The position numbers and the translations under genes are program-made. 64,000 nucleotides of DNA. Source: Candidatus Pacearchaeota archaeon. GTDB lineage: Archaea > Nanobdellota > Nanobdellia > Pacearchaeales > GW2011-AR1. Shown one piece after another: positions 3,701-48,371 of this stretch (the first letter of the stretch is position 1; every line of letters begins with the position of its first letter). The notes under the pieces are model-generated. The model worked only from the letters and a program-made list of their open reading frames with translations, was not told the origin of the DNA and ran no database searches. The DNA lies in the NCBI GenBank assembly GCA_018303855.1, contig JAGVXI010000006.1, forward strand, positions 41,181 through 105,180, written 5' to 3'.

Positions 3701-6408
3701 GGAATTCAATGAGCATTGAAGGAAGCGAAGCAGGATATGTAAATTCTACACATACTTATGCAATTCCTTCTGATGCAACAATTACAAGCACCTGGATATG
3801 CTCAAGATTCTCGCTTTCAGGCAAGCTTGACGATGACGCAGGAGATACAGTAAATATACAAGTAGCAGAAAATGATTCTTCTGGAACAGGAACTTGGACT
3901 TACACTTCATTAGACAGTTGCACATCTACTGGTTGCACTGCATGGGAAACAGAAGCAACCCGTTGTTATAATGTTTTTAGTGTAATAAACAACATTGCAA
4001 GGGCGAGTGCAGTTCAAATATCAATTAGAGCTTATCAAGCAGATGCAGATGCAAATCAAAACGTTGCAGTAGACCTAAATTATGTTAATATAACTTACAC
4101 CCAGCCAGTTGATGAAGAATACCCAATTTTCTCTAATTTGCGGGCAAATCCCTCTAATGCAACAACATACTCATCAACAGCCCTTTACAGATTTAATTCA
4201 ACAATTATTTCAACAAATGGAACAGTTGGAATAGAATTTAAGGCAGTAAATTATACAGCATCAAATCAAACAGCGGGAGGAAATGCAACTGAGTTCAATG
4301 TTTCTATTTCAGATCTTTCTGCAGGAGTTCATCCATATTACTGGCTTTCTTGGGGAAATGGCACAGCAAAAAAGTATAATGTAACTGCTTTACAATATTA
4401 CACAATTGCAAATGCCTCTCTTTCAGCTTCAACTTCAAGCTCTGCCGGTTTCACATTAACTTATCCGACAGAAACAATAATATCTATAAGTGAATCAAAT
4501 GCAGGAGACAATGATGTAATCTATACACTTTACAGAGACAATGTTTCTATTGGAACCGGTGAAACAGTAACATTGGGAGCTGGAAGCTACCATTACTTAT
4601 TAAATGCTTCTGGCGGGCAAAACTATTCCTATCCTTCATCTGGATTTTTAGACAGCGATTTGTTGGTAGTTTCGCAGGTGGCAGGAAAAGTAATTGTTTA
4701 TGTAAATAATACCCTGACAAATGGAACAATAAACTCAGGGCAAAGCATTTTGCTAAATGCCAGCTTAACAACAGGTGACAACTCTGGGAATATCACCCTA
4801 TATAATAATGGAACTTCAATTAATATCGGAACAAATGCCTCAACAATTTCTAACTTAACAACTTATGCTGATTTAGGCTCATTTAACATAACAGCATATT
4901 ATTCAGGAAGCCAAAACTATACATCTGATTGGGCAGATTCAGCAGACCAATTATGGGTTGATGTTAGTGCTCAATTAACTTCAGCTCCTCAAATTATTAA
5001 TCTAACAGTTTCAGAGGGTCCAGCAATAACATTAAATGAAGCAGGCAATATTAATGTAACAATAAATTTTACAGTAGAAGACGCCAATGGTGTTTCAAAT
5101 CTTAAACCATTAGCAAATGTAAGTTTCTTTAAACCAAGTGAAGATTCAAGAATCAATACAACATGCTTTAGAGAAACAGCAGCATCTGGGAATAATGCAA
5201 ATTTTTCATGCCAGGTTGATTTATGGTGGTTTGATGACGACGGAGAATGGGTTATTAATGCAACTATTTCAGATGCAGATGGATTAAGAGCAGAAAATAG
5301 CACCAAGAATATTACAGTAAATCCTTTAACAGGATTTAATCTTGGGCCAGGAAACATAACATTTGCCACATTAAATCCAGGAAGCCAAAACCAAACAGCA
5401 AACAATATCTTAATATTAAACAACACAGGAAACCAGGATTTTTTAAATGGAAGCATTACAATTAATGCAACAACACTATGGGGCGAAACAATTAATACAA
5501 TTGGCATTTATGCTGGAAACTTTACTGTTTCAAACACATCAACTGGGGGGAATGCCCAATGTGATATATCTGGAAAATGGGCATCAAGAATGAACGAAAG
5601 TATGTCATCATGGAGATATGTTGAGAGTGCAAACATCTCAAGAGGCAATTATACAAAAAATGATGGATTATCAGGGCAAGAGCAATTATACCTGTGTATT
5701 TATCAAATTGGAGCAGAATTAACTCAGCAGTCATATTCTATTAACAGAGCAGGCTCATGGACAATTCAAGCATTAAATATTTTGTCGCTTATTAAGGAAT
5801 TTGTTGGATTATTTGAAACCTCACTAACAATAAGAATTTTGTTGGTTGCTGTTGTTGTCAAGAAGAAAAAGCAGAAGAAAAAACAACAGGATAAAAAACA
5901 GGGGCTTGAAATTGAAACCAAGCTTAAAGGCGACAAACTTGCCAAAGCAATAACACTATTAATGGAAGAATTAAAAGAAAAACATAAATTAAAAGAAAAT
6001 GAAGTTGCACAGTTTTTAGAAATAAGCCAAAAAGAAAACATTCCAATAACCATCTTCAACAAAAATCTTGGAGCATTAGAAGCTCTGACAAAATACATGA
6101 AAGAAAATCTTAATATGACTTATAAAGAAATTGCAGATGCTCTTGAAAGAGACCAAAGAACAATCTGGACTTCTTATAAAAAAGCAAAAGAAAAACAACC
6201 AGAAGCATTAGAAATAAAAGCCACACAATTTTATCTGCCGATTGAAATATTAAAGAACAGGAAATTTACAATTTTAGAATCAGTAATACTTTATTTAAGA
6301 GAAAAACAAATGAAGCATAAGGAAATTGCTAAAATGCTTAATAGGGATGCAAGAAATATTCAAACAACTTATTCAAGAGCAATAAAAAAATTAGCAAATG
6401 AAAAGTAA
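763..6408 (+). CDS. Giant surface protein with cytoplasmic tandem HTH tail
   Basis: 1881 residues. Residues 1-88 are charged and coiled-coil-like. Residues 89-109 form a transmembrane helix. Residues ~210-345 are Ser/Glu/Pro-rich low complexity. Residues ~345-1670 form an Asn/Thr-rich ectodomain with many N-glycosylation sequons. A weaker hydrophobic segment lies at ~1669-1699, followed by a Lys-rich stretch. The tail holds two ~50-residue repeats, each ending in an HTH like sigma-70 region 4 (MTYKEIADALERDQRTIW near 1785; KHKEIAKMLNRDARNIQ near 1851). Topology in-out-in would put the HTHs in the cytoplasm. Residues ~1405-1670 match the whole secreted product of the next gene. I infer a membrane-tethered regulator or a fusion; function is unknown. 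Confidence 0.75.
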   Translation: MGRALLADASINELKNRLEECEKKKQFLRNYLKKLHLNYTSGKITYATYIETGLKKRDDRDIKEWIEFYDKEIKKCENEIKKKTLKKNIPIVFISSIILIILVTMLFNIQPRFIGFAIKGVENEQTFVKEVALKITESSEYEFIPQAQGILSSLRVSGSFKSSDEKGSVKIYLDDILILNTLQKQKPGITGSAISSGGFFSNLGKKLTITGLSVDESDTGSESSLDSSSTESSPDSSDISSEESYSEEPPESSPEASAESDLAGESSQESYSEETSEETSQISEQEESPSQEQEMSPPTSETPQPEMQEEIEQTTEEEFSANETEQESTEEKPDEKPEQKPKPEPEILEISFTDFCDETCDLTKFDLNKSFYKIRIEIDGATLYLDKIAYSMIIAPLEEPKEIPANITRPEVNATGPEINITKPELQMNITKENKTLISGYPIHTKTIPNIFIQKNSFREINLNEYFSNAEQFFVLQIKDISTTTYDYTIRFQPNQEFTGIRETTIIAENVYGQIESNAFNIIVTEEAIEKLPEPEIAPEINITKPEQNITPILPEPNITISPEINMTIPKANITILPNITQIENITEINITSIENITQENLTITTEQYQAVLGQPVKWKKILDPEQKGIAKVKLPKEAENIEITKIKNQTQEDITQTSEITTITGGVIGGGNQESLMARLFKRLVGAITGAVIGAEEPLSEKPTNETTEQEKEVEIEIDDAESDYEIKYETPAPYAVEEEIERGKRITITGPETIHYENVLVFANLSENFNIKDTSRIKIKWLENESYIKPLLVNDTNNNGIYDYIEFIVPRLSNQTFEIIIEISKAEHLNSNREFISDIYEQVKALDNTWSETINNKEYIRVTFNQNLTSNKDITLYPRITSGNPKIEVYEVDGTNKIAEFSSLISNQYSTIYLTNLISESQDVFDLKIISGSLQINHIIDPDIERINATTASYGSTDISDTACGAGSLDVDDTTYCGNSMSIEGSEAGYVNSTHTYAIPSDATITSTWICSRFSLSGKLDDDAGDTVNIQVAENDSSGTGTWTYTSLDSCTSTGCTAWETEATRCYNVFSVINNIARASAVQISIRAYQADADANQNVAVDLNYVNITYTQPVDEEYPIFSNLRANPSNATTYSSTALYRFNSTIISTNGTVGIEFKAVNYTASNQTAGGNATEFNVSISDLSAGVHPYYWLSWGNGTAKKYNVTALQYYTIANASLSASTSSSAGFTLTYPTETIISISESNAGDNDVIYTLYRDNVSIGTGETVTLGAGSYHYLLNASGGQNYSYPSSGFLDSDLLVVSQVAGKVIVYVNNTLTNGTINSGQSILLNASLTTGDNSGNITLYNNGTSINIGTNASTISNLTTYADLGSFNITAYYSGSQNYTSDWADSADQLWVDVSAQLTSAPQIINLTVSEGPAITLNEAGNINVTINFTVEDANGVSNLKPLANVSFFKPSEDSRINTTCFRETAASGNNANFSCQVDLWWFDDDGEWVINATISDADGLRAENSTKNITVNPLTGFNLGPGNITFATLNPGSQNQTANNILILNNTGNQDFLNGSITINATTLWGETINTIGIYAGNFTVSNTSTGGNAQCDISGKWASRMNESMSSWRYVESANISRGNYTKNDGLSGQEQLYLCIYQIGAELTQQSYSINRAGSWTIQALNILSLIKEFVGLFETSLTIRILLVAVVVKKKKQKKKQQDKKQGLEIETKLKGDKLAKAITLLMEELKEKHKLKENEVAQFLEISQKENIPITIFNKNLGALEALTKYMKENLNMTYKEIADALERDQRTIWTSYKKAKEKQPEALEIKATQFYLPIEILKNRKFTILESVILYLREKQMKHKEIAKMLNRDARNIQTTYSRAIKKLANEK

Positions 6409-20693: not shown

Positions 20694-20763
20694 TGGTACC
20701 ATAATATTTAAATATACCACTTGGTATGGTGTAGTATGACTAATCATACTAAGTCTTATAAAT
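20694..20763 (+). promoter_or_regulatory. Promoter and operator cluster of the RHH/RM operon
   Basis: TGGTACCA (694-701), ATACCACTTGGTAT (714-727) and AGTATGACTAATCATACT (733-750, 7-bp arms) are inverted repeats. The last abuts the TATA-like CTTATAAAT (755-763), which is 29 nt before the RHH ATG at 20785. A bound repressor would block transcription; the mRNA would be leaderless. Confidence 0.55.
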
Positions 20764-20784
20764 CATACCCCCATAATTTATATT

Positions 20785-20946
20785 ATGAAAAAGGGGGTTG
20801 TGAAAGAGAAGATAACCATCTCTATCAGCCCAGAGGTTCTAAAAAATTTAGACGACTATCGGGAAAAAATAAAACCAGTTCAGCCCGACAGGTCTCCTTT
20901 AATAGAAATAGCCATAAAAGAGTATTTGGCGAGGGAGAAAAAATGA
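20785..20946 (+). CDS. Ribbon-helix-helix (CopG/MetJ-type) regulator
   Basis: 53 residues. The pattern ribbon (EKITISISPEVLKNL), helix, turn, helix (DRSPLIEIAIKEYLARE) is that of RHH DNA-binding proteins. It is in another frame from the RM gene and overlaps it by 4 nt (ATGA at 20943-20946), so translation is coupled. The TATA box at 20755-20763 sits 29 nt before this ATG, not before the longer upstream frame of the RM ORF, which supports this gene and moves the RM start. Likely role: autoregulator (C-protein-like) of the RM operon. Confidence 0.75.
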   Translation: MKKGVVKEKITISISPEVLKNLDDYREKIKPVQPDRSPLIEIAIKEYLAREKK

Positions 20947-23900
20947 TGGAGATAAATAGAGAAAGCTTGTCAAATTTTCTTAGTTTGATTGAATTTAAAC
21001 TAAAAGACGGCGAAGAAGAAACCTATTCCAAAAAATATAGAAAACATAATGCCTATGAGATTGTAATAAAAGTAAATAGAAATTTTAAGTCTTCTTTAAT
21101 TGATTATGGAAATAAGATTAATGTCGGTAGAAGAACAATTACAAACTTCTCAAAACCAGAAAACTTTGTTATTTTAGAGTGTGTTGATAGATTATTAGAA
21201 AAGGGATATTCTCCAGAAAAAATCTTTCTGGAAAAAGATTGGAGGCAGGGTCATAATGAAGGAGGAAAGTTAGATATTCAAGTATTGGATAAAAACAATA
21301 AGAGTTTCTTGATGATTGAATGCAAGACATGGGATACTGAATATAAGAAATATGTACAAGAGACATATATGGATGGGTCACAAATATTCCCTTACTTTAA
21401 TAATGATAAAAATACAAAATTCCTCTGCCTTTACGCTTCTTACTTGGATGGGGAAAAAATTTTTTACAAAAGTTCTATAATAAAAGTAACTGAGGATATG
21501 AGAGACTCAGCAACAAGTCAAGAAGCATTTGAAAGATGGAAACCCCAAGTATTTGAAACAAACGGGTTATTTGAAGATGTTGCGGAACCATATCAACCAA
21601 AATTCACAGGGTTAAAAAAAGAAGACCTTGTATCTCTGACAAAAGATGATGGAGGAGATATTTTTAACAGATTCGCTGAGATACTTAGGAAAAATGTTGT
21701 TTCAGATAAAACAAATGCTTACAATAAAATATTCAATTTATTCCTATGTAAAATAGTAGATGAGTATAAAACAAATGAAAAAGACAAACTTAAGTTTCAA
21801 TGGGAAGAGGGTGAAACTAATGAAGAGGTATTATTGAGACTAAATGACTTATATAAGGAGGGAATGAACGAATATCTAAACTTGAAAATTTCTTCTGTAG
21901 ACATAGAAAAAATTGATAAACAATTGAAGAATTTGGCAACTGACAAAGAAAAAGAAATAATAAAACAAATGTTTATAGAGCAAAAACTTTATACAAGTAA
22001 TGATTTTGCATTTAAAGAAGTCTTTGATAAAAAGACTTTTGATTTCAATTGTGTAGTCGTAAAAGAAGTTGTTAAACTATTAGAAAGGTATAAAATAAAA
22101 TATGAAACCAAGCAACAATTTTTAGGAGATTTCTTTGAAAGTTTGTTGAACACAGGAATCAAACAAGAAACTGGTCAATTTTTTACACCAGTTCCAATAA
22201 CCCATTTTATATGTAGCTCCTTACCAATCTATGAAATAATAAAAGAGAAAAATGCCAATAGAGAAAATCATGTTTTACCATATGTTTTAGATTATGCTTC
22301 TGGTTCAGGGCATTTCCTCACAGAGATAATGGAAATCATTAATTATTACATGGACAAAATTGATGATAACTTCTTCAATAATGCATATGCAAGAAAAGAA
22401 TTTAATCGGAATAAAGATAATTTTCTTTGGGCTGAAGAGTATATCTATGGAATTGAAAAAGATTATAGGTTGGCAAAAACTACTAAAATTGCTACATTTC
22501 TTAATGGGGATGGAGAAGCTCAAATAGTTTTTGGTGATGGGTTAGATTCTTTTTCAGAATCTAAAGATTATATGGGACTTCTTAAATCAGAAAGGAAGGG
22601 TAAGGATAATCAGGTCTTTGATGTAATAGTGACTAATCCGCCTTACTCTGTAAATGGATTCAAAACGACTCTAAGAAATGGGAAAAGTAGCTTTGATTTA
22701 TTTGAATTTTTATCTGAGAAATCAGATGAGATAGAATGTTTATTTGTTGAGAGAGCAAAACAATTATTAAAAAATGGAGGCGTAGCAGGAATAGTTTTAC
22801 CAAGCAGTATACTTTCTAATAAAGGAATTAAAACAAAAACAAGAGAGTTTATCTTAAAAAATTTTGAAGTAGTGGGGATAATTGAATTAGGTTCCAAAAC
22901 ATTTATGAAAACAGGCACCAATACAATAATACTTTTCTTAAAAAAACTAAATAATTTAAAAGGTTTAGAAGTAAAGGAACATCTGGATAATGCATTTAAA
23001 TCTAAAAGGGATGTTACTATAAATGGAATTAAGAATCCTATAGATACTTATCTAAAAGAGGTTTATAATTCTAAATTTTCTGATTTCTTGTCTATTTTAA
23101 ACGGAAAACCTAATGAGAAAATAATCAAATTAGATATTTACAAAGAATACGCAAGTGAATTTTATAAAATAAAGGAAATAAAAGACTTACAAAGAAAGAG
23201 AGATTTTAATGAATTATCTGAAGAGGAACAGAAAAAAGTACTAACTGCAAGATTATGTTCTTATATATCTGAAAAGGAAAAAGAGAAACTTTATTTTTTC
23301 ATATTAGCTTATGCTCAAAGCCCCGTTTTAGTAAAAATTCCAAGAGAAATAAGGAAACAAAGAGAGTTCTTGGGATATAAATTCTCAGAAAGAAGAGGTA
23401 AGGAAGGGCTTAAATATTTAGATGAAGAAGAGAAAACTACAAGTTTATATGATGTAGAGGGAGTAGATAATCCTGAAAAGGTAAACTATTACATTAAGAA
23501 TAATTTTTTAGGGAAAAAAACAGAAATAGCAGAATCTTTACAGGGAGTAGTATTCTATCAGAAATTAAGTAGCTTAATTGATTTTAGACAAACCGAATTT
23601 AATAAAACAATAAATCTAAATCCAAAAGTAGAATTTGAAAGTAAATATGAAAAGGTTAAGTTAAAAAATAATTATGAAGTTGAAAAGGGTACATCAATAA
23701 CAGAAGAACAAACGAGAAAAGGTGGGATACCAGTAATTGCGGGTGGAAAACAACCAGCTTATTATCATAATTCCTCAAATAGAGAGGGCTATACTATTAC
23801 TATAAGTGGTTCTGGAGCTAACGCAGGGTATGTTTCCTTTTTTGATAAACCAATATTTGCTTCGGATTGTTCTACCATCAAATCAACTAACGAAAGAATA

Positions 23901-24734
23901 GCCTCAACCAAGTTTCTTTATTATTTATTAAGCCTCAATCAAGAGTCTATGTATTATCTAAAAAGAGGAAATGCCCAACCCCATGTTTATCCAAAGGATT
24001 TAGAAAATCTGAAAATACCTCTTCCTCAAATATCAATCCAAAATGAAGCAGTGCATAAATTAGATAAAATGGGTAGCGAACTGATTAAATTAAAAAAGGT
24101 TAACGAGAATCTTATTAAAGATAAAGAAATAAAATTAAAAGAAATAATCACAAATAAGTACCCTACTGAAAAATTAAGTAACTTATGTGAGGTTGTTAGA
24201 GGAGGGTCGCCAAGACCTAAAGGTAGCCCATTATATTTCTCAAAAAAAGATACGGGAATACACTGGATTTCTATATCTGATTTAACGAGATATAAAAAAG
24301 GTAAATTTATCACTAATACAATAGAATTTTTGACAGAAGAAGGTAAGTCAAAGAGCAGGTACTTGGAGAAAGGGTCTCTTGTCTTAACAAATAGTGGAAC
24401 GGTAGGAATTCCAGCATTCTTAGGGATTAATGGTTGTATCCATGATGGTTACCTAACTTTCCTTAATCTTTCTAAGAAAATATCTAATAATTATTTATAT
24501 TATGTTTTTAACGCTATGAAAGAGCATTTAGAAAGCATTGCACCTGAAGGAAACCAAAAGAATCTAAACACAACTATTGTTGGAAATTTGGAAATTGCTT
24601 TGCCCCCAGAAAAGAAACAAGAAGAAATGGTTAGCCTTCTTGATAAAATCAACAAGGAAATAGAAGAAAATAATTTAAAGATAAAGAAAATTCAAGAAGA
24701 ACAACAAAACGCCCTAAATGAGATTCTTAATTAG
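20943..24734 (+). CDS. Single-chain restriction-modification enzyme (type IIG-like, R-M-S)
   Basis: 1263 residues from ATG 20943. An upstream in-frame extension to 20721 would precede the TATA box and overlap the RHH gene in another frame, so I reject it. Domains: N-terminal PD-(D/E)xK nuclease with D111, E126, K128 (LDIQV..IECK) and a following Gln; HsdM-like N6-adenine methylase with GQFFTP near 409, motif I DYASGSGHF near 450 and motif IV TNPPYS near 565; two HsdS-like target-recognition domains (~905-1035 and ~1073-1240) separated by conserved helices. One protein should methylate and cut the same bipartite site. No separate helicase (HsdR) is present. Confidence 0.85.
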   Translation: MMEINRESLSNFLSLIEFKLKDGEEETYSKKYRKHNAYEIVIKVNRNFKSSLIDYGNKINVGRRTITNFSKPENFVILECVDRLLEKGYSPEKIFLEKDWRQGHNEGGKLDIQVLDKNNKSFLMIECKTWDTEYKKYVQETYMDGSQIFPYFNNDKNTKFLCLYASYLDGEKIFYKSSIIKVTEDMRDSATSQEAFERWKPQVFETNGLFEDVAEPYQPKFTGLKKEDLVSLTKDDGGDIFNRFAEILRKNVVSDKTNAYNKIFNLFLCKIVDEYKTNEKDKLKFQWEEGETNEEVLLRLNDLYKEGMNEYLNLKISSVDIEKIDKQLKNLATDKEKEIIKQMFIEQKLYTSNDFAFKEVFDKKTFDFNCVVVKEVVKLLERYKIKYETKQQFLGDFFESLLNTGIKQETGQFFTPVPITHFICSSLPIYEIIKEKNANRENHVLPYVLDYASGSGHFLTEIMEIINYYMDKIDDNFFNNAYARKEFNRNKDNFLWAEEYIYGIEKDYRLAKTTKIATFLNGDGEAQIVFGDGLDSFSESKDYMGLLKSERKGKDNQVFDVIVTNPPYSVNGFKTTLRNGKSSFDLFEFLSEKSDEIECLFVERAKQLLKNGGVAGIVLPSSILSNKGIKTKTREFILKNFEVVGIIELGSKTFMKTGTNTIILFLKKLNNLKGLEVKEHLDNAFKSKRDVTINGIKNPIDTYLKEVYNSKFSDFLSILNGKPNEKIIKLDIYKEYASEFYKIKEIKDLQRKRDFNELSEEEQKKVLTARLCSYISEKEKEKLYFFILAYAQSPVLVKIPREIRKQREFLGYKFSERRGKEGLKYLDEEEKTTSLYDVEGVDNPEKVNYYIKNNFLGKKTEIAESLQGVVFYQKLSSLIDFRQTEFNKTINLNPKVEFESKYEKVKLKNNYEVEKGTSITEEQTRKGGIPVIAGGKQPAYYHNSSNREGYTITISGSGANAGYVSFFDKPIFASDCSTIKSTNERIASTKFLYYLLSLNQESMYYLKRGNAQPHVYPKDLENLKIPLPQISIQNEAVHKLDKMGSELIKLKKVNENLIKDKEIKLKEIITNKYPTEKLSNLCEVVRGGSPRPKGSPLYFSKKDTGIHWISISDLTRYKKGKFITNTIEFLTEEGKSKSRYLEKGSLVLTNSGTVGIPAFLGINGCIHDGYLTFLNLSKKISNNYLYYVFNAMKEHLESIAPEGNQKNLNTTIVGNLEIALPPEKKQEEMVSLLDKINKEIEENNLKIKKIQEEQQNALNEILN

Positions 24735-28363: not shown

Positions 28364-31300
28364 TTATTTAAAGTATTGCTCTAAACCAATAGCTATTTCC
28401 TCAGCAAGAAGTTGTTTTGAAGCAGATTTTTTTAAAATTGCTGCATCTTGGGAATTTGAAATAAAACCAACTTCAACTAAAACAGCAGGCATTGTAGCTG
28501 TTTGCAAGACAGTCATATCAGCCCCTTTAACTCCCCTTGTTGTAGCTATGTTAATACTGCTAACAGCTTCTAACATTAGCCTGGCAAGATTAAAACTCAC
28601 ATCAAAACCAGCTCTTCCGTCTTCTCCAGCATTTTTTTTGCATTCATCATCTTTATCTGGATTAGACACATAATCGATTACCCCCTTTGTATCTCCTTGC
28701 TTACCAAAGCAAAAAAGATAAACTTCCGCACCATTTGCTTCAGAATCTTTAATAAAATTTTCATCTTTTGGATCGCCAAAAGAATTTGCATGAATACTGA
28801 TAAAAACATTTGCATTTTTTTGGTTAGCAATTGCAGTTCTTGCTGATTTGATTGGATCATCTGATAGAACCTTCTTAGTTAGGTAAACTATAGCCCCTTT
28901 ATTCTCTAATTCTCCTTTTAACCTCGATGCAATATCCCAAACAAGCTCTGCTTCATCAATACCATTGCCACTCGTACCAGTTCCTTTTCCACCATGCCCA
29001 GGATCAAGAACAATTATCTTGCCAGCAAGTGAAGATGTTGTTGTGCCAGTAGTTGATGAATCATCATCTTTGTTGCCCATTGAAGGATCACCACCGCCTC
29101 TTTTAGCAGGATAACACCCTTCATCTTGAATTGTTTGGTCAGAATAACAGCAATAGTCATTAACAAATTTTAAAAAGCCAAAAAAACCACCTCCAAATTT
29201 GCAAACCAATTCTGCTTCACAATCCCCATTATTATTACAATCGCCTTGATTATATGCTAATAATTTTTTATCAGAATCAACAGATTTTACTTCTTCAATT
29301 CTAATTTTTGCTGTGCCATCATTATTCAAGCCAATAAAAGTTATAGAGATGTCTTCAACATTATTATTGTCGACATCATTATCAACATCAAACTTTTGTG
29401 ATATCCCCTTTTGCAATTCAAAAATTCCATTTATTAAAGGATAAAGTTCAAGTGTTAGTTTGTCATTTTCAATTTTCACAGCTTTGATTGTAATAACAGA
29501 CATTGTTCCAGATGAAGGTTGTAAAATATCTAATAAGAATGGCTCATTTTCTTTAATATCTTTTATTAATACTTCTCCAGATTGTTGTTCAAGCACAAAT
29601 TCACTACTACCTTCTATTTGTGAAATGACATCAGCTATTTGCGAGCTTTGCCTTTCTCTTTCCAGCCATATAACGTTCCTAATCAAAGCATTATAAACTC
29701 TCGCCCTAAACCATGTAAGCTCTGCTTTTTGGAAAGAGTAAAATACCTTTGTGTAATTTAAGTCAATTGATTCTAAAGCGTGAAGTAAAGCATTTTGATT
29801 AACAACTTCTGCATCATTTAAATCCGGAGATGTACCAACTAATTTTATTAATGCCTCTCTTACCCCTGTATACTGCTCATTGTTCAGATATTTTCCTTCA
29901 TTCATTAATCTGTTAAGGTTATATTTATTCAAATCACCTAAAGTCTTGCCTTCAAGTATTTCCATTGAATTTTTCACAGAATTTTGGTCAAGCCAGCACC
30001 TTAATTTTTGATTATCACAATAACCAACATCAGTCCATCTTTGTTCATTTCCTACTCGTGTGCCAGGATTTGCAGTTGCACAAATTCTGATTATCCCGCT
30101 ATTATAAAGTTCAGGATTAATAAACTCCTCTGCACCTGCCTGAATATTTGGATTAATCATGCTATACAAACTCGGGCTTCCTGAAACACACTCTGCTTCT
30201 GTTTTAACATCTTTTTTAGTTGCCTGCTCTTTTTGATAAGACTCTGCTAAATAATCTAAAGCGAATGAGGTAGTAACCTGCTTAAATCCGCACTCTGTTT
30301 TGGCATTAACACTAACGCACAATTCTTTATATCCAGTTGATGCAATAAAATCAACTGTTTCAGAGCCAGTATCTCCTTTTGGAATATACCCATTTGCAAC
30401 AGAATAAGTTGGGTTTACCTGGTATAATGACAAACCTTCTGGATTCCTTAAATAAACTCTGAAATAAGCCCCCCTGTCATTTCCAGCATAAATATGGAAA
30501 AATACTTTATACTGGGAAGTTGCAGGCACAGTTGCAGTTGTAAATGGAATTTCTTCAAATCTTGCATAAAACTGCACAGGAGAGTCTGGCTCAAGTAATT
30601 TGTCTAAAAACTCCCCGCTTGCAGGATATCTTGCAGAGATAAATGTCTTGCAAACCTCTGTGCCAGCTTCTTCTGTAGAACGCGCTTTAAATGCATTAAT
30701 AGAATTTTTAGCATAATATTGCGTGAAATAAGAAACAGAGTTTTGTGCATTTTGCCAGGCATTCGCAACACCAAGATATTCTCCTCCTCCACGGACATTT
30801 TGCCCTGCAACAGCTTCAAATATTTTTGGGATTATTAATTTTGTAAATGGCACTGCTTGTCTCCAGAAAAATTCGCACATATAAATGCTCTGAATTTCAT
30901 CACAAATTCCAACTGTTTTTCCTGTTTCAAGATTTTCCTGTAAACAACCTTTGTAAGACTTCATAATGCTTACAAAATTATCAAGCCCTGCGTGAATTCC
31001 TGTCAAGCAAACAGGAACAGCAATCCCTTCCTTACGATTTGGCAGGCATAATGCAATACTCCCAACAATTCCTGACTGAACAACATCAGGCACAGTATAG
31101 CTTCCTCCTAAATTGCATCTGCTTGAAGGACAGATTACAGGGTCACAAACATTAAACAAAAGCTTGCAATCTTTTGGAGACATAAATTCCTGGCATTGCA
31201 TTTCAGGAACACCTGCTGCTGGATTTCCAACTCTAATTGGCTCTGCAACACCTGGAATCCTTATATAATCAATTCCAGCCCTATACTGGTTCTCAGCTGT

Positions 31301-34300
31301 TTCAAGAGCTCTTATAGCAGAACTGATTTTTCTTCTTGCTTCTGCTGGTTTTAAGCAAGAAACCTGATCATAAGACGCTCCTGTAACCATGTTTATTCCA
31401 TGACAGATATCATCTCTAATGCCGTCAAAAAAGTCTTGTCTTCCATTTGCCCCAACATTGCATAAATAAAAACTTCTTACTGCGCCAGACTCATCATATG
31501 AAGCAGTGCTTCCAAATCCCTGCACAGTCTGCTTTGTTGCAGCATACCATCCATTAACCAAATCAAATGGAACAATTGCAGCTTTTCCTTTATATGGCTC
31601 TGTTTCATAATACATTACTTCTGCATTGCTAAATCCATTTTTAGTGCAATCCTCTTCTTGGATTGAAGAGAATGTCATTTCTCCAATTTTGTTTATATCT
31701 TGCTCTATTATTCCTGCCTCATCCATATTCCTTAGTCCTATAATCCAATTTCCCGGAGGTGAATCAGGAGCGCTGTCCCTTCTTGCTAAAGGCGTTCCAC
31801 CTTCATCATAAATCTCACTAACAGTATAAACTATTCCTCCACTTGCTACTTGTTGCTTTAAACCCAAAACATAAAATTTATTATTGTAATCTACTGCCTG
31901 GATTTGTCTATCTTTTGGTATATTCCCAAATCCTTCAGCAATAGTTTGCCCATTACTATAATAATATCTATCTATTTTTTTATTATATTTAACCAGGCCT
32001 AAACTCTCGGTTTTCTGAGTATCTTCCAAACTGCCCAAAAAGTTTTCTTGCTGAACTTCTCTTTCATATGTATTTTTGATTTCAATTAAATTTTCATTTA
32101 ATCTCCTGCCAACTGCATCTTTCATCTCATTTGTAATTCCTTGCTGATTCAAAGTTTCCATGTCAGTATGAATGTCTCTTAAAGTGTTTAGAGGAACTTT
32201 ATCCAAATATTTATTAACATTATTGCTACTAAATTCGGTGTTTAAATTATTATTAGAACTAATATAATCCTGAACTTTTGGATTTAGTATATTGAGGTAT
32301 TGATTCCTCACCTGTTCTGTATTAACAATTCTTGTTCCAAGCTTTATCTCGGAATTATCTGGGTCTTTGTCTAATGGTTGCAACACTCCCTGAACATTTT
32401 GTATAGCTTTATATCTTAACTCAACATCTTTATCAACTTCACTGGAATAATGTGTCAGACACTGATCCATTGTTTGAAACTGCCTGCCTTGCCCAATCTC
32501 ACCACTGCATTTAGGATACCAGATATTTTTCATTATATCGTGCCTTGCAATTCCTTTGCCTCCAAAATTGGCAAAATAATTTTTCACAGTTAAATAAGCT
32601 CCAACACCCAAACAAGCTCCTTTAAACCCTTTTAACAAACTTCCAATATTATCGTTTATTTTTTCCCATTTTTCAATCTGCTTGTCTAAGCTCGCAATTT
32701 TTTCCTTGATTTTATCAGGGCTTAATTGAATTGCCCGCTTCTCAATTCCAATCTTAAATGTAAAATTTGCCTCTGTTCCTGCATTGTCAATGCTTGGCAT
32801 AACATGCACTTTTGCAAATTGATTTAAGTTAATCTTATTAACAGCAATCCTGTATTCTTGTTCTCCAATAATTTTATAATCTCCTTCTTTAACCTTTATA
32901 GTTTCAGAACCAAAAATATTATCGGTTAGTTTTCTCTTAACATATACATCAAAAGTTGCAGAATCTGCTTCCAAATCTTTTAATTCAATATACTCTCCTT
33001 TATCAGAAAGAAAAACTTTTTGATTCTGCGTCACTGGTTTTCTTCCATTGTAATTTGCATCTGCTGCTCCACTAATCTGCACTTCAACCCCGTAATCTTT
33101 AAATTTAGGTTCAGAAACTCCTTCAAATTCAATCATTCTTATTCTCCCTCCAACATAAACAGTCTGAGTTACAGGTTCTTGATTTGAAAGTTTTTCTAAA
33201 TTATTTAATACATCCTGAACAGAACCCCCAAGGTTGGAAGATTCTGGGTATAATTCAATAAACTCTTTTGCAAGCTCAACCATTTTAGATTTCTGATTAG
33301 CAAAATGAGCCATTAATATTGCTTCATATAATCCTCTTTCTGCATAAGTTTCTGGCAATTCGCGATTTTCAAAAATAACTTTTTCACCAGCAAATTGAGT
33401 TTTAAGTATTCTGTAATTTTCCAAAGCATTTTCAAAATAAATTTTAGCATTTGCATCCTGAATCTCTATGTCTCTCGGTTCTGCAAAACCTTTGAGTGTA
33501 ACAATCAAACCTGCAGATTGATCACCAACTAATCTTGCAGCAAGCCCTGGAAATAAATTATTAGTGGGGTCCTTAGCAGTAAGAGAATTAACAACTTCTC
33601 CTTCTACTATATATCCTGCAGAGGATTTTATAAACGCAGAGAACTTTGTTCTTGCCTCTCCAATTGTGCTTAACAAAGTATTTGGATTAGTTATTTCCCA
33701 CTGCCTTGCCAGCTTGTAAATCCTTTCCATATCAGATTCGCTTAATTTGTCAGAGTGTATCTGAGGCGCACTTAAAAAAATAACATTTAAATCATTTTCT
33801 TTGCCAGTATCCCCTTTTATATAAGCAGCTGCAATAAAAATATTAGTGTCTTTATTATCAGTATAAATTCTGTCCCCAACATTATAATCTTCTGCTGGTT
33901 TTCCATTAACTTCCAAGCTTATTTTTGCCCGTTTAGATAGCATAAACTTTTCACTTATGCTATCATCTTCCTTGCAGGAAACCTCAACTACCTGGTCTAA
34001 TCCACGATTAATTGCTTTTAAAAGTGTGCATCTATTATCCAAAAATTTGTCTCCTTTCATAACCTGCATACTATCTCCACCAATGCTGAATTTTGCCATT
34101 TCCTTTGGATCCACAAACCCATCTAATCTAACTTGCAATCCTGCTAAGCAATAAAATCCAGGCATGTAAATCTTGCTGGACGTCTGCCCTTTTCTTAAAG
34201 TAAATGTTCCAATCCTGTTTTCCTTGTCAGAATATACTGCAATAACTGCTCCATCTTCTCTAATTGATTCTGCTCTTACAAATCCCCTGCCGCTCCAAAA

Positions 34301-35023
34301 ACCATATTGTGCATAATTTTGCTCCCAATCCAAATCACTTAATTCTGACAGAGAAAAATCAGCTTTTCCAATTCCAAATGCATTTTGAATGTCATATCTT
34401 AAAAATGCAGTTAATTCTCCTTGAACATAATCTGGCATTGCAGACTCATTTGGCTGCTGTTTTAATATAATAACTGCATACCCGATATTATCGTCAACAG
34501 GAGTATTAATCAAATTAACTCCAGGAGAAAGTGCAGCCTGAGCAGGATGAAATCCAACTCCGCTTATTTCTCTTGGGTAATTTCCCTTAAAAGAAATGTG
34601 GTCAATTGAATTAACATCAATTAAAGGGTTTATCTTTGTTGCCATAATCGGGCAGAATACAGGAACATTTCTCTCTTCCAGCAAATCGCTCCTTACAACA
34701 GCAGGTGTGCAAGATGCAGGAGCAATTTGCAAAACAAAATCCTGCCCTGCTTCGCATTTTTCCTGGCTAAAAGTTGTAAAAGCATCTACACCACTTCTTG
34801 CAAAATAATCAAATGAAGTTGGCCTTGAGTATTGTGTGCTTGTTCTGCTGTAAGCAGCAGAAATTATACTCACCAAAAGAATCATTAAAACCAAGCCTAA
34901 GCTAATTAATAAAACTACTTTAAGACTAACACCGCTTTTAATTACGCCTAAATTATTATTCTTACCCACCTTATTTATTTTTACCATTCTCTTATTCAAC
35001 TTACCTTTTTTAACCCCCACCAT
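28364..35023 (-). CDS. Giant secreted protein with C-terminal amidase domain
   Basis: 2219 residues. A single N-terminal transmembrane segment (~33-57) leads to a very long extracytoplasmic part with many cysteines, a TPR-like helical stretch near 555-650, and several beta-rich regions. The last 220 residues (~2000-2219) are an Amidase_3 domain: zinc ligands H2010 in DPGHGG, Glu in GIDEAELVW, His in SIHANS, and catalytic Glu in VEVGFIS. This is the N-acetylmuramoyl-L-alanine amidase fold, which in bacteria cuts peptide stems of peptidoglycan; DPANN archaea have none, so the target may be a host or neighbour wall, or another amide. It follows a pilin-signal protein in one operon. Confidence 0.78.
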   Translation of the reverse strand: MVGVKKGKLNKRMVKINKVGKNNNLGVIKSGVSLKVVLLISLGLVLMILLVSIISAAYSRTSTQYSRPTSFDYFARSGVDAFTTFSQEKCEAGQDFVLQIAPASCTPAVVRSDLLEERNVPVFCPIMATKINPLIDVNSIDHISFKGNYPREISGVGFHPAQAALSPGVNLINTPVDDNIGYAVIILKQQPNESAMPDYVQGELTAFLRYDIQNAFGIGKADFSLSELSDLDWEQNYAQYGFWSGRGFVRAESIREDGAVIAVYSDKENRIGTFTLRKGQTSSKIYMPGFYCLAGLQVRLDGFVDPKEMAKFSIGGDSMQVMKGDKFLDNRCTLLKAINRGLDQVVEVSCKEDDSISEKFMLSKRAKISLEVNGKPAEDYNVGDRIYTDNKDTNIFIAAAYIKGDTGKENDLNVIFLSAPQIHSDKLSESDMERIYKLARQWEITNPNTLLSTIGEARTKFSAFIKSSAGYIVEGEVVNSLTAKDPTNNLFPGLAARLVGDQSAGLIVTLKGFAEPRDIEIQDANAKIYFENALENYRILKTQFAGEKVIFENRELPETYAERGLYEAILMAHFANQKSKMVELAKEFIELYPESSNLGGSVQDVLNNLEKLSNQEPVTQTVYVGGRIRMIEFEGVSEPKFKDYGVEVQISGAADANYNGRKPVTQNQKVFLSDKGEYIELKDLEADSATFDVYVKRKLTDNIFGSETIKVKEGDYKIIGEQEYRIAVNKINLNQFAKVHVMPSIDNAGTEANFTFKIGIEKRAIQLSPDKIKEKIASLDKQIEKWEKINDNIGSLLKGFKGACLGVGAYLTVKNYFANFGGKGIARHDIMKNIWYPKCSGEIGQGRQFQTMDQCLTHYSSEVDKDVELRYKAIQNVQGVLQPLDKDPDNSEIKLGTRIVNTEQVRNQYLNILNPKVQDYISSNNNLNTEFSSNNVNKYLDKVPLNTLRDIHTDMETLNQQGITNEMKDAVGRRLNENLIEIKNTYEREVQQENFLGSLEDTQKTESLGLVKYNKKIDRYYYSNGQTIAEGFGNIPKDRQIQAVDYNNKFYVLGLKQQVASGGIVYTVSEIYDEGGTPLARRDSAPDSPPGNWIIGLRNMDEAGIIEQDINKIGEMTFSSIQEEDCTKNGFSNAEVMYYETEPYKGKAAIVPFDLVNGWYAATKQTVQGFGSTASYDESGAVRSFYLCNVGANGRQDFFDGIRDDICHGINMVTGASYDQVSCLKPAEARRKISSAIRALETAENQYRAGIDYIRIPGVAEPIRVGNPAAGVPEMQCQEFMSPKDCKLLFNVCDPVICPSSRCNLGGSYTVPDVVQSGIVGSIALCLPNRKEGIAVPVCLTGIHAGLDNFVSIMKSYKGCLQENLETGKTVGICDEIQSIYMCEFFWRQAVPFTKLIIPKIFEAVAGQNVRGGGEYLGVANAWQNAQNSVSYFTQYYAKNSINAFKARSTEEAGTEVCKTFISARYPASGEFLDKLLEPDSPVQFYARFEEIPFTTATVPATSQYKVFFHIYAGNDRGAYFRVYLRNPEGLSLYQVNPTYSVANGYIPKGDTGSETVDFIASTGYKELCVSVNAKTECGFKQVTTSFALDYLAESYQKEQATKKDVKTEAECVSGSPSLYSMINPNIQAGAEEFINPELYNSGIIRICATANPGTRVGNEQRWTDVGYCDNQKLRCWLDQNSVKNSMEILEGKTLGDLNKYNLNRLMNEGKYLNNEQYTGVREALIKLVGTSPDLNDAEVVNQNALLHALESIDLNYTKVFYSFQKAELTWFRARVYNALIRNVIWLERERQSSQIADVISQIEGSSEFVLEQQSGEVLIKDIKENEPFLLDILQPSSGTMSVITIKAVKIENDKLTLELYPLINGIFELQKGISQKFDVDNDVDNNNVEDISITFIGLNNDGTAKIRIEEVKSVDSDKKLLAYNQGDCNNNGDCEAELVCKFGGGFFGFLKFVNDYCCYSDQTIQDEGCYPAKRGGGDPSMGNKDDDSSTTGTTTSSLAGKIIVLDPGHGGKGTGTSGNGIDEAELVWDIASRLKGELENKGAIVYLTKKVLSDDPIKSARTAIANQKNANVFISIHANSFGDPKDENFIKDSEANGAEVYLFCFGKQGDTKGVIDYVSNPDKDDECKKNAGEDGRAGFDVSFNLARLMLEAVSSINIATTRGVKGADMTVLQTATMPAVLVEVGFISNSQDAAILKKSASKQLLAEEIAIGLEQYFK

Positions 35024-43999: not shown

Positions 44000-45121
44000 A
44001 TGTTTAAATTTTTAAAAGACAAGCTAAGCAATTGGGCAAAAAAGATAGCCAAAGCTGAAGAAAAAAGAGAAGCGAAAAAAGAGCCAGAAAAAATAGAAAA
44101 GGCGAAAACAAAAATTGAGCAAAAGGATAAAGAAAAACCAGTAAAAGAGGAAAAGATAAAAAAACCAGAGAAAACAATTGAAAAAAGGCTTGAAGAAGCT
44201 GATGAGAAAGAAAAGCAGGAAGCTGAAGAAGAAAAACAGGGGTTTTTTGCAAGATTAAAGTCAAAATTCACCAAGATTAAAATTTCTGAAAACGAGTTTG
44301 ATATTTATGCAAATGAATTAGAAGAGCTTTTGCTTGAAAATAATGTCGCATTTGAGGTTGCAGAAAAAATAATCTCAGGACTTAAGCAGGAAATTGTTGG
44401 CAAAGAATTGTTAAAAAAAGAAATTGAGGGTGAGATTAAAGATGTTTTTAAAGAGATAATTAGAAAAATACTTATAGAACCATTTGATGTAGCTGAAAAA
44501 ATCAAAGAAAAAAACCAAAAAGAAAAAACCCCTTATGTGATTGTTTTTTTCGGAATAAATGGCACAGGTAAAACAACCACAATTGCAAAAGTTACTGAAT
44601 TTCTCAAAAAGCAAAACCTTTCATGCGTTTTGGCAGCAGCAGATACTTTCAGAGCAGCAAGCATTGAGCAGCTACAAAAGCACGGAGAGAGGCTTGGAGT
44701 AAAGGTTATTGCAAATTCATATGGCAGTGATCCGGCAAGCGTGGGGTTTGATGCAGTAGCTTATGCAAAAAGGCATTATATTAATGCTGTCTTGATAGAC
44801 ACTGCAGGACGAATGCATACTGCAAAAGATCTGCTACGAGAAATGGAAAAAATAGTTAGAGTTACTAAGCCGGACTTGAAAGTTTTTATTGGAGAATCAA
44901 TAACAGGCAATGATGCGGTGGAGCAGGCAAAATCATTTAACTGGAGTGTTGGCATAGACGGAATTATCTTAACAAAAGCAGACATTGATGAAAAAGGCGG
45001 AACAGCTCTCAGCGTTGGCTATGTAATAAAAAAACCCATTTTATATCTCGGCACAGGGCAGGAATATAATGCGATTGAACCTTTCAGCAAGGAAAAGTTT
45101 ATTGAAAGGTTGGGATTGTGA
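44000..45121 (+). CDS. ftsY: SRP receptor FtsY
   Basis: 373 residues. A Lys/Glu-rich A-domain (~15-95) is followed by the N domain and the SRP-GTPase G domain: P-loop GINGTGKT (185-192), G2 region AADTFRAAS, DTAGRMHT and TKADIDEKGG. FtsY docks SRP-ribosome complexes at the membrane. Co-directional with SRP54, 112 bp apart. Confidence 0.96.
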   Translation: MFKFLKDKLSNWAKKIAKAEEKREAKKEPEKIEKAKTKIEQKDKEKPVKEEKIKKPEKTIEKRLEEADEKEKQEAEEEKQGFFARLKSKFTKIKISENEFDIYANELEELLLENNVAFEVAEKIISGLKQEIVGKELLKKEIEGEIKDVFKEIIRKILIEPFDVAEKIKEKNQKEKTPYVIVFFGINGTGKTTTIAKVTEFLKKQNLSCVLAAADTFRAASIEQLQKHGERLGVKVIANSYGSDPASVGFDAVAYAKRHYINAVLIDTAGRMHTAKDLLREMEKIVRVTKPDLKVFIGESITGNDAVEQAKSFNWSVGIDGIILTKADIDEKGGTALSVGYVIKKPILYLGTGQEYNAIEPFSKEKFIERLGL

Positions 45122-45233: not shown

Positions 45234-48200
45234 ATGTTAGAGAAATTTGGAGAAGTCTTAAGAAAAGCTACAGATAAGATAGCTAATGCCATATTCCTTG
45301 ATAAAAACCTCGTAGATTCGATAATCAAAGATCTACAAAGAGCCTTAATAGAAGCAGACGTAAACATTAAACTTGTAAAAGAATTAAGCGATAAACTGAA
45401 AAAGGCGGCATTTGATGAAAGAATTAAAGGCATAGAAAAAAAAGAGCATCTTATCAAAGTTTTACATGATGAACTAATTGCTTTGCTTGGAGAATATAAA
45501 CAGCTTAAATTACAAAAAGGACAAAACAGAATTCTGCTTTTAGGTTTGTATGGGGCAGGAAAATGCGTCCACGCAGAAAGCAATATTCAATTAGGCAATG
45601 GGGATATTATTAAAATTGAAGATCTTTATAATAGATATAAAGATAAAAATGAAGAAGAATTAGAAGAAGGAAAAATAATAGATATATCTAGTAAAAATCT
45701 GTTTGTTCCTTCATTTAATTCCAATACCGCTAAAATAGAAAATAAAAAAGTAACGCATTTATGGAAATTAGCAAAAGATAACCTGATTAAAATTAAAGTA
45801 AATAATGGGAACGATTTTTCAGTTAAAGTAACTCCAGAACATCCATTTTTTGTCCTTAGAAATGAGAAAATTGTTAAAATAAGAGCAGATGAAATAACAT
45901 TAAATGATTATATATCTATTCCTAGAGAAATAAAAAATGATGGCAAAATTATTGGATTATTTGACGAAATTAAAAAATTAAATCTTTATACCTATTTAAG
46001 TCAAGAAGAAATAAAATTAATTTTGAAAGAAAAAAATAAAAATTTAAAGGAAATCTGTAAAGATTTGAAATTCAAGAAAAACTATTGTCATTTTACTTCA
46101 AGAATCAAGAGAGGTCAAGTCCCAATAGAACTAATAGAAGAAGGCAGATTTAATCTCTTAAGAATAAAAGAATATAATAGTTACAAAATTATTACAATGC
46201 CCTGTTACTTAACGCCAGAATTTGCAGAATTTATTGGTTATGTTATGGGAGATGGAAATATAGGGAAAAATTATATCCAAATATCTAATGAAGATACAGA
46301 GATAATAAAACGAATAAATGAACTCTCAAAAATTCTTTTTAACATAACTCCCTCAATTAAAAGAGACTTTAGAACAAAAAAAATGTATAAAGTTATAATA
46401 AGTTCAAAATCTTTAATAGAAGTTTTTAAAATATTTGGACTAAAAAGAGGTAGAAAGGGAAAAGAATTAAAAATTCCACAACAAATCTTACAATCTAATA
46501 AAGATACAATAAGGTTATTTATTAGGGCTTACTTTGATTGTGATTCAAGTCCTTCAAAAGGAAAAAGATTTATAGAGCTAATCTCTGAAAGCAATATCCT
46601 AATAAAACAAATGGACTTGTTGTTAAGAAGATTTGGCATTTTGTCAGCAATTTCAAAGAAAATTATTAAAAATATTTCATATTGGAGACTTTCTATAAAA
46701 GCGCGATATGCAGAAACTTATGCTGGTGAAATAGGATATTTAATAAACAGAAAAACAAAAATAATAGCAGGATACAAAAGGATAGGAATAGTTCAAGGAA
46801 CAGGAAATCAAGATATGATTCCTCTAGGTAAATCTCTAAAAGAACTAAGAACAAAACTTGGATTTTCTATAGGTGAAATACAAAAAAATGCTGTTTGTAG
46901 TTATGGAATACATGAAAAAAAAGGTTTTATATCAAGAGAGAACCTGCTAAGACTTATAGTTTATTACCAAATTAAAAAAAGAGGGATATTTCTAAGTTTG
47001 TTGCAAGACATAGAAAATAGAAGTTCATTAAAGGATAAATACTCTAAAGAACTAATAAATGGGACACTTTATTACTTAAAAGATCAAGGAATTATTAATC
47101 TCGAAGATAATAAAAATTTAATCCTTTCACAAAAGGGTCAGTTATATCTGCAACAGATAAATGAAAACCAGTCAGATTATCTATTAGAAATGTTAGAGAT
47201 GCTTGCTAATTCAAATGTATGCTGGATGCCTGTAAAAGAAATAAAAAATATCTCAAATGATAAGGAATTTGTATATGACCTAACAGTAGAAGATAACCAT
47301 AGTTTTATTGCAGAAGGGTTTATAGTTCATAATACAACAACAGTTGCAAAACTCGCTAATTATTTTGCTAAAAGAGGAAACAAATCTGCTGTTATTGGCT
47401 TAGATGTACACAGGCCTGCAGCACAAGAGCAATTAAAACAGCTTGCTGAAAGAAACAAACTGAATTATCTAATTGATATTAATGCAAAAAACCCAATAAA
47501 CACCTATAAAAATTTCAAACCAGAATTATCAAATTATGATGTACTAATAATTGACACAGCTGGACGCCATAGTTTGGACAAAGAGCTTGTAGCAGAAATT
47601 TCTGCATTAAATAGGTTAATTGAGCCAACTGAAACAATCCTAATCATGCCAGCAGATATTGGACAAGCGGCAAAACAACAGGCACAAGCTTTTAAAGAAA
47701 TGCTGCAAATTTCTGGAATTATTGTCACAAGAATGGATTCCACTGCAAAAGGAGGGGGAGCATTAACAGCATGTGCTGAAATAAAAGCACCTGTTTATTT
47801 TATTACAACAGGAGAAAAAATAAATGACATTGAAGAATTTAATCCAGAATCATTTTTATCAAGACTTTTAGGCATGGGGGATCTTCAGATTTTAATTGAA
47901 AAAGTCCATTCTGCCTCAGACACAAAAAAACAAGAAGAAATTTCAAAAAGACTGCAAGAAGGACAGTTTTCTTTAGAAGATGTCATTGAGCAAGTAAAAA
48001 CTCTTGGCTCTGTCGGCGGATTTGATAAAATAAAGAGTATGATTCCAGGATTAGGCAAAGTAAAACTTCCAGAACTAAAAGTTGAAAACCAAGAGCAGAG
48101 AATAAAAAAGTGGGAGCATATAATTAAATCAATGACGCAGGAAGAAAAAAACAATCCAGAATTATTAGAAAGACAAACAACTAGAATTGCAAGAATAGCA

Positions 48201-48371
48201 AAAGGCAGTGGAACACATACCAGCGATGTTCGCAATTTGCTCAAGCAGTATAAAATGCTAAAAGAAGTTATAAAATCAGGCTCAACAATGGGTGTGGGTG
48301 AAGGAACTCTTGACCAAAAACAGCTTATTAAACTAGCAAGAAAGTTTGGGAAGAAAAAATTTAGAATGTAA
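45234..48371 (+). CDS. srp54: SRP54 with intein in the P-loop
   Basis: 1045 residues as translated; 455 after removing a 590-residue intein (111-700), the normal SRP54 length. The N-extein covers the N domain up to the P-loop LLGLYGAGK. The C-extein restarts at TTTVAKLANYFAKRG and holds DVHRPAAQEQL, DTAGRHS, TRMDSTAKGGGA and the Met-rich-type M domain that binds SRP RNA and signal peptides. Splicing must rebuild GLYGAGK-TTT for GTP binding. It is the first gene of the run with proB, VKOR and Bud32; proB starts 2 nt after. Confidence 0.95.
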   Translation: MLEKFGEVLRKATDKIANAIFLDKNLVDSIIKDLQRALIEADVNIKLVKELSDKLKKAAFDERIKGIEKKEHLIKVLHDELIALLGEYKQLKLQKGQNRILLLGLYGAGKCVHAESNIQLGNGDIIKIEDLYNRYKDKNEEELEEGKIIDISSKNLFVPSFNSNTAKIENKKVTHLWKLAKDNLIKIKVNNGNDFSVKVTPEHPFFVLRNEKIVKIRADEITLNDYISIPREIKNDGKIIGLFDEIKKLNLYTYLSQEEIKLILKEKNKNLKEICKDLKFKKNYCHFTSRIKRGQVPIELIEEGRFNLLRIKEYNSYKIITMPCYLTPEFAEFIGYVMGDGNIGKNYIQISNEDTEIIKRINELSKILFNITPSIKRDFRTKKMYKVIISSKSLIEVFKIFGLKRGRKGKELKIPQQILQSNKDTIRLFIRAYFDCDSSPSKGKRFIELISESNILIKQMDLLLRRFGILSAISKKIIKNISYWRLSIKARYAETYAGEIGYLINRKTKIIAGYKRIGIVQGTGNQDMIPLGKSLKELRTKLGFSIGEIQKNAVCSYGIHEKKGFISRENLLRLIVYYQIKKRGIFLSLLQDIENRSSLKDKYSKELINGTLYYLKDQGIINLEDNKNLILSQKGQLYLQQINENQSDYLLEMLEMLANSNVCWMPVKEIKNISNDKEFVYDLTVEDNHSFIAEGFIVHNTTTVAKLANYFAKRGNKSAVIGLDVHRPAAQEQLKQLAERNKLNYLIDINAKNPINTYKNFKPELSNYDVLIIDTAGRHSLDKELVAEISALNRLIEPTETILIMPADIGQAAKQQAQAFKEMLQISGIIVTRMDSTAKGGGALTACAEIKAPVYFITTGEKINDIEEFNPESFLSRLLGMGDLQILIEKVHSASDTKKQEEISKRLQEGQFSLEDVIEQVKTLGSVGGFDKIKSMIPGLGKVKLPELKVENQEQRIKKWEHIIKSMTQEEKNNPELLERQTTRIARIAKGSGTHTSDVRNLLKQYKMLKEVIKSGSTMGVGEGTLDQKQLIKLARKFGKKKFRM
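45564..47333 (+). mobile_element. Intein with LAGLIDADG homing endonuclease (in SRP54)
   Basis: 590 residues. Block A starts with Cys (CVHAESNIQLGNGD); block B contains TPEHPFFV; two LAGLIDADG helices read FIGYVMGDGNI and FIRAYFDCDSS; block F is DLTVEDNHSFIAEG; block G ends IVHN, followed by extein Thr. A helix-turn-helix-like region (KSLKELRTKLGFSIGEIQ) and helical insert lie before block F. All splicing residues for a class 1 intein are present, so it should be active. It is inserted exactly between the P-loop Lys and the first Thr. Confidence 0.93.

Follow-up and report, generated by a model that had tools for sequence, protein, structure and literature searches.

What kind of element splits the nucleotide-binding loop of SRP54 in a Candidatus Pacearchaeota archaeon, and does it persist there through its own mobility or as a switch of its host? 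The interrupted gene lies in a 64-kb window (the whole stretch of DNA analysed, 64,000 nucleotides of contig JAGVXI010000006.1), and its parts are listed in Table 1. In the precursor, Pfam recognizes SRP54_N at residues 6-81, the SRP54 GTPase domain from residue 701, and SRP_SPB at residues 911-1012, and places Intein_splicing (E 2.4e-31) together with two LAGLIDADG_3 stretches between the SRP54 halves. The NCBIfam model intein_Nterm begins at residue 111, and intein_Cterm ends at residue 701. An earlier note, made from the sequence alone, had claimed an intein from Cys111 to Asn700 between GAGK and TTT of the P-loop; the profiles and the reading frame match these boundaries to the residue (C111-N700) and place the insertion at GK/TTT (slashes mark insertion or splice points). 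Removal of the intein leaves an SRP54 of 455 residues, a normal length, with the spliced junction GLYGAGK/TTTVAKL. The N, G, and M domains are all present in the exteins, and the G motifs are intact once the intein is removed. Compared with SRP54/Ffh and FtsY GTPases, the exteins carry all SRP54 domains and differ by the intein-split P-loop.

Table 1. Features of the srp54-ftsY locus (positions in the window)
Feature	Position	Strand	Basis
ftsY (SRP receptor), directly upstream of srp54, empty at the paralogous P-loop site GINGTGK/TTT	44000..45121	+	ORF, Pfam, site comparison
srp54 gene (N-extein, intein, C-extein; 1045-aa precursor)	45234..48371	+	ORF, Pfam domains
N-extein: SRP54 N domain and initial P-loop part (...GLYGAGK)	45234..45563	+	translation, Pfam domains
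Intein, 590 aa, Cys1-Asn590	45564..47333	+	profiles, motif alignment; predicted fold like solved P-loop VMA inteins
N-terminal splicing half, blocks A and B, about residues 1-130	45564..45953	+	profiles, predicted fold, motif alignment
LAGLIDADG homing endonuclease, about residues 213-389, acids D230 and D327	46200..46730	+	Pfam, profile, predicted fold, alignment
Accessory domain, residues 393-546, predicted HTH and winged-helix-like	46740..47201	+	fold match not significant
C-terminal splicing part, blocks F and G, VHN	47193..47333	+	profiles, motif alignment
C-extein: P-loop TTT, remaining G domain, M domain (SRP RNA/signal-peptide binding)	47334..48371	+	translation, Pfam

The host genome is a MAG-like draft of 860 kb in 16 contigs. 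It encodes one SRP54 and one FtsY, adjoining each other, and contains an SRP RNA candidate (E 5e-17) below the Rfam cut-off; a search with the Pfam splicing model found no second intein in it. Elsewhere in the window, a 2219-aa protein (28364-35023, minus strand) bears a C-terminal N-acetylmuramoyl-L-alanine amidase domain (Amidase_3, E 7.9e-40), which is unusual for an archaeon and may have bacterial walls as its target. A 1337-aa single-chain restriction-modification protein (20721-24734, plus strand) combines HSDR_N, N6 methylase, and Type I specificity domains, and an 1881-aa protein (763-6408, plus strand) has a sigma-70 region 4-like HTH at its end.

The LAGLIDADG motifs and the full set of splice residues claimed in the earlier note were recovered in the alignment, with intact blocks A (CVH), B (VTPEHPFF), C (GYVMGDG), E (RAYFDCDSS), F (VYDLTVEDNHSFIA), and G (FIVHN/T). 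The residues that define class 1 are present, namely C1, which occurs in all 25 aligned inteins, the TxxH of block B as TPEH, and the VHN/T of block G. A HINT domain is recognized by PF14890 (E 8.8e-32), TIGR01445, and TIGR01443 as well as by a Foldseek match to 7qss. Each of the two LAGLIDADG motifs contributes one catalytic acid, D230 and D327; of the two aspartates of block E, the second is the catalytic one in LAGLIDADG enzymes. An AlphaFold model of the intein built with ten relatives (mean pLDDT 85) matches the Thermococcus litoralis VMA intein 7qss (E 5.3e-27, TM 0.85 on target), which is also the best PDB sequence-profile match (E 1.1e-40); PI-TkoII and PI-PfuI are matched as well. Between the endonuclease and the C-terminal splicing part, the accessory region is predicted to contain helix-turn-helix and winged-helix-like elements. 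Foldseek returned no significant match for it (best E 0.28; CggR, MarR), so a winged helix is only suggested. As judged from its motifs, the element is a complete class 1 intein with a predicted LAGLIDADG homing endonuclease.

The archaeal VMA-b inteins in the V-ATPase A subunit of T. litoralis and P. horikoshii (7qss, 7qst) share with the SRP54 intein the insertion in a P-loop and the arrangement of HINT, LAGLIDADG endonuclease, and accessory domains, as described for the T. litoralis VMA intein (PMC8966425), and they are its best PDB match in sequence and fold. They differ in their host, an ATPase subunit instead of an SRP GTPase, in sequence (about 18% identity over the fold), and in the accessory region, which is longer in the SRP54 intein (about 150 residues). 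The archaeal aIF-2 intein (NCBIfam PRK14845) likewise sits right after the GK of a GTPase P-loop, but its host is a translational GTPase; the PRK14845 match spans the full intein (1-590) and its flanks at a score far below the model cut-off. Essential NTPases whose nucleotide-binding loop contains an intein also include RadA (P. horikoshii) and DnaB (mycobacteria), yet these act in DNA repair and replication. Moreover, the DnaB intein of M. smegmatis belongs to class 3 and is a mini-intein that has a redox cysteine, in contrast to the class 1, endonuclease-bearing SRP54 intein. Separately, a 170-aa mini-intein (L074, 3473-3982) was seen in the P-loop GGTASGK/C of a Hodarchaeaceae MAG, in what appears by eye to be a secretion-type ATPase, and L044 and L045 contain GK/T inteins similar to it, their host type again judged by eye.

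A scan of 84,980 species genomes yielded 20 complete SRP54 inteins in addition to those of the window and of G122, an extra carrier from a phylum-wide Pfam draw. All 22 occupy the same site and are scattered over several archaeal phyla; thus, the insertion is not an artefact of a single assembly. Every SRP54 intein found reads GK/C...HN/T, and the 22 complete ones have intact splice motifs and retain both endonuclease aspartates. The scan placed carriers in Pacearchaeota, Nanoarchaeota, Woesearchaeota, Micrarchaeota, and Diapherotrites, in Thermoplasmata/Thermoplasmatota, in a DeMMO archaeon, and in Aenigmatarchaeota, where the intein is interrupted by a contig end; the closest named relatives that carry it are Pacearchaeota and Nanoarchaeota MAGs. 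The survey of relatives for an empty site that the earlier note had proposed gave a patchy picture: among 231 relatives, 8 carry the intein (the window genome itself, G260, G417, G281, G436, G446, G348, and G240), and the great majority have an empty site, the other relatives listed having SRP54 frames near 460 aa. Even congeners differ, with G281 carrying the intein next to empty G212, G364, and G440, and G436 next to empty G335 and G425. When draws were made around carriers, the intein turned up in 3 of 196 genomes of the Micrarchaeota phylum and in 2 of 145 of the Thermoplasmatota phylum.

Two long Thermoplasmatota SRP54 frames (G709, 888 aa; G755, 679 aa) were considered as other inteins and rejected, as they are intein-free upstream extensions. 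Viral contigs gave 15 matches, all weak or partial and none closely like the SRP54 intein. The C-terminal part of an SRP54 intein (L040, 7-987) lies on a contig binned as Chloroflexota, which is probably misbinned, as the extein is of archaeal type.

The trees of intein and host gene are in strong conflict. In AU tests comparing the two maximum-likelihood topologies, those of intein and extein reject each other's data (delta lnL 367 and 406, p about 0). Across families, inteins can be the more similar part: between the window and L030, inteins are 61% and exteins 49% identical, and between L018 and L030 64% and 53%. In some pairs of close hosts, inteins are less alike than exteins (49% versus 76% for L026/L031; 39% versus 75% for L034/L037), a pattern that replacement or fast evolution would explain, as would an old vertical stay with rate differences. 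The SRP54 intein is thus sporadic, with exactly intein-free sites elsewhere, and its tree disagrees with that of the host gene, as is typical of homing inteins. Tree conflict, identity pattern, and conserved endonuclease acids fit a homing cycle, in which srp54 alleles lacking the intein would be cut by its LAGLIDADG endonuclease, and repair would then copy the intein in. Together with the patchy distribution and the empty sites in congeners, they argue for a homing element first. The SRP54 intein is very probably a class 1 mobile homing intein at a fixed P-loop GK/T site, a relative of which appears to have jumped into the ftsY P-loop, the homologous site, in at least one Pacearchaeon.

This jump is suggested by the Pacearchaeota genome CG10_35_13 (L022/L014), which has an intein at the paralogous FtsY site (GINGSGK/C...HN/TTS). 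The FtsY intein is 51-53% identical to several SRP54 inteins of relatives, at about 22-25% extein identity (53% and 23%, respectively, against L018), and is nested in the Pacearchaeal/Nanoarchaeal SRP54 inteins of the intein tree (branch 100/98). AU tests reject both an SRP54-only intein clade (p-AU 2e-4) and a single FtsY intein clade (p-AU 5e-100). Its block E reads FDCGS, the only D to G loss at a catalytic place that holds D in 22 of 22 SRP54 inteins, and the SRP54 of the same genome, further along the contig, has the empty P-loop GTYGVGKTTT. The inteins found in FtsY of Aenigmatarchaeota (L041) and Hadesarchaea (L042) group apart as a sister clade, and the FtsY of a Bathyarchaeota MAG (L069, 149-658) holds a 170-aa mini-intein without endonuclease at the same P-loop site; inteins must therefore have entered FtsY on more than one occasion. 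The window's own SRP54 and FtsY sites match at 24 of 30 central bases, and a T. litoralis accessory domain is reported to make cleavage less specific (PMC8966425), which together would offer a plausible route for jumps from SRP54 to FtsY. On the basis of one MAG, the FtsY intein of CG10_35_13 reads as a jump between paralogous sites from SRP54. It is unlikely that it instead stems from an unsampled FtsY lineage that also gave rise to the Pacearchaeota SRP54 inteins: such a lineage would be in keeping with the three other FtsY inteins, but the Aenigmatarchaeota and Hadesarchaea ones stand apart, that of CG10_35_13 lies deep within SRP54 inteins, and one common FtsY clade is rejected. The SRP54 of this genome (L022 from 7103; L014, reverse strand) is a 559-aa frame with a near-exact tandem repeat of ~85 residues of the N domain, which could reflect recent duplication or faulty assembly.

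What the intein means for its host depends on splicing. Translation would yield the full precursor, from which C1, the block B TxxH, the residues of blocks F and G with the His-Asn pair, and the +1 Thr of the P-loop are predicted to drive autocatalytic excision and joining of the SRP54 halves. Before splicing, 590 residues separate the two parts of the P-loop, and GTP binding by the precursor is therefore not expected; that the precursor would be inactive is supported by the RadA P-loop intein, which abolishes ATPase activity (PMC6195587). With a sole SRP54 copy, splicing must be efficient; this copy number lends support to the earlier note's claim that membrane targeting requires splicing, and the best reading of the sequence is that the intein must splice for the cell to live. 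The earlier note also suggested that splicing could act as a control point. A reading in which the intein persists because its slow or regulated splicing determines how much active SRP54 there is, tuning membrane protein targeting to temperature, redox, salt, or substrate, seems to us quite unlikely. The P-loop location does make SRP54 activity depend on splicing, the site is common to both SRP GTPases in archaea, and, besides the effect of the RadA intein, the P-loop DnaB intein is inhibited by oxidants (PMC6195587). However, most relatives are free of the intein and congeners differ, a patchiness that argues against a needed switch, and the two endonuclease acids have been preserved, as they should be in a homing element. 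Further, among the aligned inteins, near-invariant cysteines besides C1 lie only in the endonuclease part, and C553, outside it, occurs in 11 of 23; a cysteine switch of the mycobacterial DnaB type thus has no conserved counterpart in SRP54 inteins and was rejected. The bolder proposal, that the SRP54 and FtsY inteins are conditional switches through which cell state would hold back splicing, with membrane protein insertion gated by a parasitic element co-opted by a reduced-genome archaeon, is highly improbable.

An old intein, inherited vertically from the ancestor of the carrier archaea and lost many times without recent homing, likewise has very little chance of being the right account. Although the inteins of Micrarchaeota, and those of Thermoplasmatota, for the most part cluster with others of their host phylum, as would suit such descent, it would require dozens of independent precise losses and is at odds with the strong tree conflict, with inteins closer than exteins across families, and with endonuclease acids kept in all 22. 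A non-splicing relic or assembly chimera, with SRP54 broken or another copy at work, is next to impossible despite the MAG-like draft assembly, given the identical precise insertion in 22 genomes of separate studies, the intact motifs, and the single SRP54 of the genome.

The mobile homing intein thus remains the favoured reading. In the openly licensed literature, covered in part by titles, counts, and abstracts, no relevant paper links an intein with SRP54 or FtsY; two reviews make no mention of one, and NCBIfam has no model naming one. The earlier note suspected that SRP54 was not yet listed as an intein host, which the searched literature and NCBIfam do not contradict. Provisionally, and with the registry and the main prokaryotic survey outside the literature covered, SRP54 and FtsY are apparently unreported as intein hosts. 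The element is of an ordinary intein kind in a new host pair.

P-loop inteins have mostly been described from DNA metabolism. With SRP54 and its receptor, the co-translational targeting machinery joins their hosts, and annotation of intein-bearing SRP54 and FtsY genes may go wrong unless an exception model is made. Moreover, the Pacearchaeal FtsY intein would represent a natural case of an intein moved between paralogous sites, from SRP54 to FtsY, at moderate divergence and with an endonuclease residue lost at the new site, which makes the path to new insertion sites testable with purified proteins.
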